NCBI GenBank assembly: GCA_025210395.1
Contig: JAOARV010000020.1
Location: forward strand, 1-64,000
Length of the DNA stretch: 64,000 nt
Reading direction: 5' to 3'
Source: Marinisporobacter sp.
GTDB lineage: Bacteria; Bacillota; Clostridia; Peptostreptococcales; Thermotaleaceae
This document shows positions 54,745 through 58,463 of the stretch, piece by piece. Position 1 is the stretch's first letter. Every line of letters begins with the position of its first letter. Under the pieces are notes generated by a model. It did no database searches, was not told the DNA's origin, and worked only from the letters and a program-made list of their open reading frames with translations. A program made the translations under genes and the position numbers.

Positions 54745-55392
54745 ATGTCAACCAAAAAAGTAACCTCCTCTAATAAAACTAGAATCAACAATATGTTAGT
54801 TAATCAAGCTTCCCAAACCGGTCAAATCCATAGTATTCGGCCCATCCGAAAAATAGAAAAAATTCATAATTACGCCTTTCAATCTTCTAATAATAATTTT
54901 TTTGGCTCCTCTCATTTTTATGAACATTTAAAAAAACTAAAAGAAGAGTACCTTCATTTTTATAGAGCGCAGCAAGAGCTTGAAAATACTTTAAAAAAAT
55001 TCATTTATTCTACTCATAAAGATTTTATTGTCATGATTAAAGAACTTATCTCAAAATACAATAAAGCCATTATCTCTTTACAAGATTTTGATCTTGATTT
55101 TAATACGAGCTATTGCAAAAACATACATGCTATTCTTTTATCTCATGAATCAAATCTAGAAAAAATAGGTATAACCATACAAAAAGATACAACCCTATCT
55201 ATAGATGAAAGAATCTGCTTTCATGCTCTAAAAAATAATAAAAATGATATAGCGTTTTTATTCACTAATAAGAATGGATTCATTAAAAAACTTTATTATG
55301 CCTTTAAAGAAATTAAATTACCTACATATGATAAAAATCCTTATAGTATTTCGTCAAAAGATACACATTTGATTATCGATGAAAGACGCTAA
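54745..55392 (+). CDS. Stand-alone protein with FliD C-terminal-like segment
   Basis: A 215-residue plus-strand protein. Residues 1-55 are polar and disordered-looking. Residues 58-110 form a long helix (HFYEHLKKLKEEYLHFYRAQ, ELISKYNKAI). The C-terminal half has SNLEKIGITIQKDTTLSIDE followed by ALKNNKNDIAFLFTNKNGF, which matches the pattern of the FliD flagellar-cap C-terminus (L..IGIT...DGTLS.DE..L..AL..N...V..LF). It lacks the FliD N-terminal domain and is about half the usual length. No flagellar gene is nearby. GAAAGGGGTG precedes ATG. True function unknown. Confidence 0.65.
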   Translation: MSTKKVTSSNKTRINNMLVNQASQTGQIHSIRPIRKIEKIHNYAFQSSNNNFFGSSHFYEHLKKLKEEYLHFYRAQQELENTLKKFIYSTHKDFIVMIKELISKYNKAIISLQDFDLDFNTSYCKNIHAILLSHESNLEKIGITIQKDTTLSIDERICFHALKNNKNDIAFLFTNKNGFIKKLYYAFKEIKLPTYDKNPYSISSKDTHLIIDERR

Positions 55393-57605: not shown

Positions 57606-57703
57606 AAACTTCTCTCCTTTGTTGTAATCCTAATATCTTCACTTTTAGTATTATATGTCTATTATACCCTAATATCTACTGGCAAATAAAATTTTTCTAT
57701 ATT

Positions 57704-57732
57704 ATAAAACCAGGCTCAGCCCAGCTCTATAA
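57704..57732 (-). terminator. Possible terminator of the 198-residue gene
   Basis: On the minus strand AGCTGGGCTGAGCCTGGTTTT forms a short GC-rich hairpin followed by TTTTATAATATAG. Stem includes G-T pairs. Confidence 0.5.
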
Positions 57733-58323
57733 TAATTCTTCTGCTTTTTCTAGTTCTAATATATATGAAAGTGCAGGTGCATCTTTATAAAACTCGTCTA
57801 ATTTCATTTCTTCCCTTTGCTCTAATGAATATATTCGTCTAAATAATAATACCATATCTTTTTTCTTCAAACTAGAGAAATCAATAGGTGATAAATGTTC
57901 ACTCATCACCTTTGCTAATTCTTCATCTATTTCAAACACATCATAGTCACTTTTTTTAAAGATCTTTCTTATTTTGTTGTTTTCATCTGCCTGTAAGTCT
58001 TTAATCACAATAACATACAATAAATTAAGCTTTTCAGATATATTCTTGACAAAATTCCCCCACTTTTTAAGACCTTTTGAATTCATTTTCTCATAACTTA
58101 AGCCATAATCCTCTAAATATCGTAATAATACAAATTTTGCACAATAATTAAAACACGACTTATACAGAAATAATTCACACCATTTTTCATCATCTATATC
58201 CATGTTTAATCGACTATCTATTCTCATCTTTTTTAACATTCCTCTATTTTCATATTCATATTTTATGATAAAAATCTGAATAAATGATTTCAATCCCTGA
58301 TATATTTTATTGATTTTATCCAT
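57727..58323 (-). CDS. Protein resembling the N-domain of adenine methyltransferases
   Basis: A 198-residue protein. The segments CAKFVLLRYLEDYGLSYEKM and YDVFEIDEELAKVMSEHLSP followed by IDFSSL...RRIYSLEQREEM and DEFYKDAPALSYILELE follow the layout of the helical region before motif X in type I/IIG adenine methyltransferases (pattern F..RFLED.G...IDFS.ID.DILG.IYE....EERKKLG.FYTP..I..YI). The methyltransferase core that should follow is absent; the gene stops at a clear stop with a possible terminator. ATG 58323 has AAGGGAG upstream. It is either a free-standing N-domain or a relic. Confidence 0.55.
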   Translation of the reverse strand: MDKINKIYQGLKSFIQIFIIKYEYENRGMLKKMRIDSRLNMDIDDEKWCELFLYKSCFNYCAKFVLLRYLEDYGLSYEKMNSKGLKKWGNFVKNISEKLNLLYVIVIKDLQADENNKIRKIFKKSDYDVFEIDEELAKVMSEHLSPIDFSSLKKKDMVLLFRRIYSLEQREEMKLDEFYKDAPALSYILELEKAEELL

Positions 58324-58463
58324 AAATTTCATCTCCCTTAAATAATGTAACTCTTACTACATAGTATTCAGCCTGTCTATATTAGTTGTCTTTTTTATCT
58401 TAGATTTATCAAATACAAATAATTCATCTAACCTGTACATATACTTAATTGAGGTGATATAAA

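Follow-up and report, generated by a model that had tools for sequence, protein, structure and literature searches.

A stand-alone protein resembling the N-terminal domain of N6-adenine methyltransferases is conserved beside methyltransferase genes in two genomic contexts

The analyzed window, a stretch of DNA of 64,000 nucleotides, encodes a small protein (c0; Table 1) whose sequence identifies it as a stand-alone version of the helical domain found N-terminally in gamma-class N6-adenine methyltransferases (HsdM, PglX, type IIG-like). A known domain is newly recognized here as an independent, conserved protein that is associated with methyltransferases in two settings: a conserved block with an orphan CamA-like methyltransferase, and BREX-like operons. 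The basis in hand comprises sequence homology, conservation as a stand-alone protein, purifying selection, and linkage to methyltransferases in both contexts; physical binding, docking site, sign of effect, and biological output are what we infer.

Table 1. Position of c0, its flanking sequence elements, and the neighboring genes in the window.
Feature	Length	Position	Strand	Remarks
c0, putative stand-alone methyltransferase N-terminal-domain protein	198 aa	57727..58323	-	Sequence, homology, purifying selection
Ribosome-binding site GGGAG		58333..58337	-	9 nt upstream of the c0 ATG (58323-58321); sequence
Stem-loop overlapping the c0 stop codon, possible terminator or attenuator		57700..57734	-	Predicted fold
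c1, uncharacterized	306 aa	56685..57605	-	Adjoins c0 in 18/19 loci, remaining one cut by contig end
c2, uncharacterized	144 aa	56130..56564	-	In 17/19 loci, other two cut by contig end
c8, uncharacterized	201 aa	55404..56009	-	In block at 10/18 loci
c4, orphan gamma-class N6-adenine DNA methyltransferase	717 aa	52450..54603	-	Eco57I and TaqI_C domains, CamA-like
c3, uncharacterized, divergent flanking gene	330 aa	58464..59456	+	Kept with block at 15/18 loci

The reading frame of c0 is intact on the minus strand and contains all sequence blocks quoted in a preliminary description of this DNA. Its longest reading (57727-58332) comprises 201 amino acids and uses an alternative upstream ATG at 58332, but the shorter reading was preferred since its ATG is preceded by the ribosome-binding site listed in Table 1 and its start methionine (M4 of the longer reading) is invariant in 18 aligned sequences, the window's included. 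The claims that c0 has its own start site and lacks the catalytic core both held: no methyltransferase catalytic family was found in c0 with Pfam or NCBIfam, and the 201 residues contain neither the SAM-binding motif I nor the catalytic NPPY motif IV. NCBIfam gave no match to c0, the only Pfam match was a sub-threshold one to DUF507 (E 0.02), and no significant family of either database was found for the members of the c0 family. The DUF507 match, which occurred in one of 18 c0 members, was set aside as isolated and weak, as were matches to Mre11 (E 0.0064, without any individually significant stretch), PRP21 (E 0.018), DUF4899 (E 5e-4, in one distant relative and under its cut-off), and the PADLOC models Unk_02 (two of 18 c0 members, best 1e-4) and PDC-M49B (two of 18, best 0.0014). 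The possible terminator proposed for c0 was upheld in part. The stem-loop at the stop codon (57734-57700) has a predicted energy of -19.3 kcal/mol (z -2.2, with 7 of 200 shuffles equally good), and folds with z <= -2 were found downstream of 13 of the 18 c0 genes, including the window's, by a weak control of 50 mononucleotide shuffles each; a terminator consensus scan called none at this stem-loop and a clear U-tract is absent, which makes it a fair but unproven candidate.

When 148 genomes of the order were searched with a c0 profile, 19 of them, the window's own included, proved to contain c0 as one copy of about 190–210 amino acids. The carriers are 15 of the 16 genomes of the window's family (f1) and four genomes of a second family (f6). 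The fifth f6 genome (G059), whose contig begins inside c2, gave no c0 match, and G003, which belongs to the same genus as the window, lacked c0, c1, c2, and c4 in the searches of the 148 genomes. In a protein search of 59 related genomes, 18 (own included) had a full-length c0 match; weak matches L020-L024 of the same search, from four genomes with unrelated matches only, were discarded after inspection of their translations by eye revealed no methyltransferase. The open frame, length, and sequence of c0 have been kept in 18 other genomes, which is more than expected by chance. Comparison of the window with two genomes of the same genus yielded dN/dS ratios of 0.11–0.14 for c0, 0.11–0.17 for c1 and c2, and 0.21–0.24 for c4. 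Together with the same length in 19 genomes, the ratio of c0 agrees with the proposal that it is a functional small protein and not a cut-off relic. Homologs of the same short length, the search for which had been suggested, occur in the 19 genomes of the order and in four distant genomes (see below), and c0 is free of a covalent join to a catalytic domain in all 19 and all four; the homologs thus are not all full-length methyltransferases. The c0 of the window had no match among plasmids and phages, and none was found in viral contigs searched with a distant relative.

The profile of c0 was aligned with five methyltransferase N-domains, which had been chosen by eye from 26 loci for showing the full N-domain (hhalign 96.0%, E 4e-9, 178 columns). 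One of the five, L066, was selected by the comparison itself, because it was the only non-c0 match of the c0 profile in the 148 genomes (E 9.7e-4, in the region directly before motif X of a methyltransferase read for 957 amino acids), and the other four were found via L066. Without L066 the score was 93.4% (E 2e-7, 174 columns). A further set of eight N-domains (A7), which does not contain L066 and L075, consisted of four enzymes that adjoin stand-alone relatives of c0 in BREX-like operons, three loci refetched from the earlier set of 26 (L159, L160, and L161), and a plasmid enzyme. This set gave 97.5% with c0 (E 7e-12, 182 columns) and 98.4% with the wider stand-alone family (E 5e-15, 167 columns). 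As controls, two reversed profiles scored 1.1 and 0.2%, 40 column shuffles at most 1.0%, and 10 decoy windows at most 2.2%, and six other gene families of the c0 loci, whole c4 included, reached at most 0.8% against methyltransferase N-domains. An independent direct match was obtained by a tblastn search of 72,556 plasmids with a stand-alone relative, where the one match was the N-domain of a 1204-aa N-6 DNA methylase of the haloarchaeal Natronorubrum daqingense (65% of the query, 25.5% identity, E 8e-5). The PADLOC model MTase_I weakly matched eight of 18 c0 members (best 5e-4), which agrees with the assignment to methyltransferase N-domains but is too weak to carry it. A profile search with the 198 residues had been proposed as a check of the methyltransferase similarity, and with scores of 96.0, 93.4, and 97.5% against control values not exceeding 2.2% this similarity is real.

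The initially noticed resemblance was to the region just before motif X of adenine methyltransferases. The profile match supports this assignment, but the alignment of c0 runs through the motif-X position and not just up to it. Motif X is a SAM-contacting signature. In c0 it is degenerate, with GxFYTP changed to xFYKxAP and both the glycine and the threonine lost, and the SAM-contacting signature is therefore lost as well. As motifs for SAM binding or catalysis are also absent from c0, the protein is not expected to methylate on its own.

According to the accessible part of PMC12839542, the N-terminal helical bundle of PglX/BrxX is homologous to the dimerization domain of HsdM (M.EcoKI) and has been proposed to be an interaction interface. 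With about 200 residues this domain is similar in size to c0; it immediately precedes the motif-X segment of gamma-class methyltransferases, and in the accessible parts of PMC12839542, PMC11341690, and PMC11842806 it is described only within full-length enzymes. In contrast, c0 stands as a protein of its own, its motif X is degenerate, and it lacks a catalytic or recognition domain; its match is to the eight methyltransferase N-domains, whereas solved PglX and HsdM structures remained unmatched in c0 profile searches. No description of a stand-alone version of the PglX/HsdM-type N-domain was found in the open-access literature searched. Two roles have been proposed for the bundle in BREX, the interaction interface and a built-in inhibitor: according to the accessible text of PMC11842806, BrxX may be kept inactive by its N- or C-terminal domains, as cis-inhibitory elements, until partners bind. 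Because the N-domain exists as a separate protein in two settings, its role could be tested by adding or removing a protein of 200 residues.

In the first of these settings, c0 heads a conserved block that includes two uncharacterized genes (c1 and c2) and the orphan CamA-like methyltransferase c4 (Table 1). The c4 gene lies within about 4.5 kb of c0 in 16 of 19 loci; two of the exceptions are contig edges, and the third is genome G011 (98% complete), which has kept c0, c1, and c2 and has no c4-like gene at E <= 1e-40. At the G011 locus (L028) a nitrilase-like gene, which normally is located further along, adjoins c2 as if c4 and its neighbors had been deleted, and this genome offers a natural test of what the small block genes do alone. 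Relatives of c4 mostly occur without c0, which was present in 17 of the 63 genomes that contain c4 at E <= 1e-40. In 20 regions chosen by hand from the c1, c2, and c4 matches in genomes devoid of c0, c0 was found in none (0/20) and c4 in 19, and these 19 contained c1 in 15 and c2 in eight cases. The c0 gene was therefore either added in f1 and f6 or lost elsewhere. No nuclease family was detected among ten proteins scanned, c0 and c4 included; c1, c2, and c8 are uncharacterized. The C-terminal half of c2 is nearly invariant (HPYFKNPCxYxIRLxT...DGVKKxGxGxY) and belongs to no significant Pfam family. The first 200 residues of c1 correspond to the central part of a 354-aa protein from a different family (L157). 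The cysteine-rich start of that protein presumably resembles a SEC-C motif; c1 does not have that segment.

Among the solved relatives of c4, the best two of ten were 8cxz (E 4e-44) and 7lni (E 5e-44), which we take to be CamA entries. This identity agrees with the residue types at the positions given in PMC8187626 when these are mapped on the alignment. As far as described in the accessible parts of PMC8187626 and PMC13395437, CamA of Clostridioides difficile is, like c4, an orphan N6-adenine methyltransferase, and the two share eight DNA contacts; CamA has 577 amino acids as opposed to the 717 of c4, which furthermore differs from CamA by its location together with c0, c1, and c2. These contacts emerged from a check of twelve DNA-contact residues of CamA, with S514, I517, and Y521 left out. 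All 15 c4 enzymes of f1 and f6 were identical in R425, Q438, W439, R441, Q346, S472, A473, and K172 (CamA numbering), and H171, I349, Y455, and K456 were substituted. Among another 20 enzymes, which mainly represent other families, Q438 and K172 vary, and R425, W439, R441, Q346, S472, and A473 are constant, so that six CamA-type contacts are conserved over 35 of 35 enzymes. This constancy would be less expected of a restriction system than of an orphan house-keeping mark. According to the accessible texts, CamA is restricted to C. difficile (PMC13395437) or seldom found in other bacteria (PMC8187626); in contrast, c4-like enzymes were detected in 63 of the 148 genomes of the order (E <= 1e-40), so that a CamA-like enzyme with several conserved DNA contacts is common there. 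Only 97 amino acids precede the motif-X segment of c4. The hypothesis that c0 substitutes for a missing c4 N-domain is unsupported, because c0 is absent from the regions of eight enzymes of family f2 (23–88 amino acids before motif X) and nine of family f3 (116–138 amino acids).

The second setting was found by profile searches of more distant genomes. In 391 genomes of the class, three stand-alone relatives were recovered (G199, G226, and G288; E about 1e-15 to 1e-16), and a profile including these three detected a fourth in 329 genomes of the phylum (G611, E 2e-25). All four are located 11–15 nt upstream of a methyltransferase with an N-domain of its own, in BREX-like operons; in G611 the N-domain of the methyltransferase next to the relative was itself detected with the stand-alone profile (E 1.4e-3). 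PADLOC scans covered G226, with matches of the methyltransferase to MTase_II (best, 2e-55) and PglX (1.5e-26) and of other operon genes to BrxF (5e-7), PglZ (4e-12), BrxD (9e-111), and BrxHI (2e-209), and G288, with matches to BrxC (9e-10) and PglZ (2e-11), whereas the operons of G199 and G611, the latter seen in part, were assigned from the likeness of their ORFs and gene order. A gene that marks this type of operon (265 amino acids, no known family) was present only in G199, G226, and G288 among 321 genomes, and the stand-alone gene therefore accompanies the operon type in three of three genomes. Neither c1 nor c2 had a match at the three distant loci L172-L174. In the accessible part of PMC12839542, a stand-alone N-domain is not among the BREX parts. 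Four further matches in the 391 genomes were weak (E 0.0017–0.047); one of them (G378) is a methionyl-tRNA-synthetase-like ORF by eye. Of the additional matches in the 329 genomes, L182 is a nucleotidyltransferase-like ORF by eye and L183 could not be reproduced among ORFs. In G611 (L185, 7474-9035), ORFs that by eye are transposase-like break the methyltransferase gene, and the gene of the stand-alone N-domain is open. A DndB-family gene (E 4e-53) is located near the BREX-like operon at L172 (13393-14580), and an ORF at L173 (12441-13622) has a start similar to that of this gene.

Since both of these different contexts adjoin such an enzyme, the best reading is that c0 acts as a trans-acting subunit or regulator of the neighboring methyltransferase, which we consider rather probable. 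A role as methyltransferase modulator had been suggested for c0 before and is backed by the gene neighborhood in both contexts, beyond which it is inferential. In the window, c0 would act in trans on the neighboring orphan CamA-like c4. It might dock where the N-domain of a full-length enzyme would sit, on the catalytic domain close to the pocket for the cofactor, or alternatively on the enzyme's own short N-terminal helices, and once docked could change when or where c4 methylates and possibly link c4 to c1 and c2. According to the accessible part of PMC8187626, the first N-terminal helices of CamA adopt an ordered state with bound SAH, in which they close off the cofactor pocket. Contacts of these kinds, at the interaction interface, in cis-inhibition, or at the cofactor pocket, might be competed for, completed, or bridged by a free N-domain located beside such an enzyme. 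Evidence against a trans-acting c0 is provided above all by G011, which has no c4, by the absence of c0 from most genomes with c4, and by the unmatched N-terminus of c4: its N-terminal region did not match c0 (0.5%), nor did the N-terminal regions of nine f3 relatives (1.6%), and whole c4 gave 0.8%, placed at the c4 C-terminus and with no direct profile match. More tentatively, the free-standing N-domain family may represent a trans-acting switch that licenses or blocks a conserved orphan CamA-like methyltransferase in Clostridia and, as a component not yet listed for one BREX subtype, also controls PglX there. If so, epigenetic marking and phage defense would share one regulatory subunit.

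A possible but doubtful alternative is that the N-domain has been repurposed as a partner of c1 and c2, for example an adaptor that binds DNA or protein, in a function for which a methyltransferase is not required any more; c4 would then be a mere frequent neighbor. It keeps this standing because G011 has retained c0, c1, and c2 without a c4 match, and it would also accommodate the adjacency of c0 and c1 (18/19 loci; Table 1), the slower evolution of c0 than of c4, and the dissimilarity between c0 and the N-terminal region of c4. However, the four distant relatives again adjoin a methyltransferase, with no match to c1 or c2 at L172-L174, and in the regions without c0 described above c1 (15/19) and c2 (8/19) still accompany c4.

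A defense function of the block, in which unmethylated DNA would be restricted, c4 would mark self, and c0 would serve as a docking subunit in the manner of BREX, appears unlikely. The BREX-like operons of the stand-alone relatives, with their BrxF, BrxC, PglZ, BrxD, and BrxHI matches, and the matches of c4 to PglX models (best 2.8e-20) would be in line with such a role. Yet in a scan of six block proteins strong matches to defense models were confined to c4, all of the methyltransferase kind among the 25 matches listed, whereas c0 (E 0.008) and c10 (E 0.007) matched weakly and the other three gave nothing. BREX at the window locus would combine BrxC/PglY and PglZ with PglX, but no BrxC or PglZ was recognized among these six proteins. 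Moreover, synteny of the block extends to most of the family members sampled, and the six CamA-type DNA contacts that are constant in 35 of 35 enzymes contrast with the recognition domain of BrxX, which the accessible literature text describes as the most variable part of that protein.

A chance match between helical proteins is a very improbable explanation of the similarity between c0 and methyltransferases. It could draw on the lack of a significant Pfam, NCBIfam, or PDB match for c0 (in sequence searches of c0 profiles against solved structures no methyltransferase was found), on a fold deduced from sequence alone (an AlphaFold model from two sequences, the window protein and L002, had a mean pLDDT of 40.6, too low for use), and on the weaker scores of small sets against c0 (3.0% for L074/L075, 16.2% for L087/L090, and 1.9–62.5% for single sequences), but is contradicted by the near full-length, co-linear profile match with controls of at most 2.2% and by the independent tblastn match in a plasmid N-6 methylase. 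The idea of a cut-off relic of a methyltransferase gene, to which the resemblance of c0 to only the N-terminal part of full-length enzymes might point, is refuted by the dN/dS ratio and the conserved length of c0, and its single copy in 19 genomes, own ribosome-binding site, and distant stand-alone relatives likewise make it improbable in the extreme.

Two minor observations were made in addition. The C-terminal domain of Spo0A had no match in the window's genome (G000, 91.6% complete), which possibly reflects an assembly gap; it is present in G001-G003 of the same genus, and Spo0A was found in 82 of the 148 genomes. Within the window, a gene on the opposite strand (54745-55392) encodes a 215-aa protein that weakly resembles the C-terminal end of FliD, the flagellar cap protein (E 7e-7), and is found at eight of 18 block loci.
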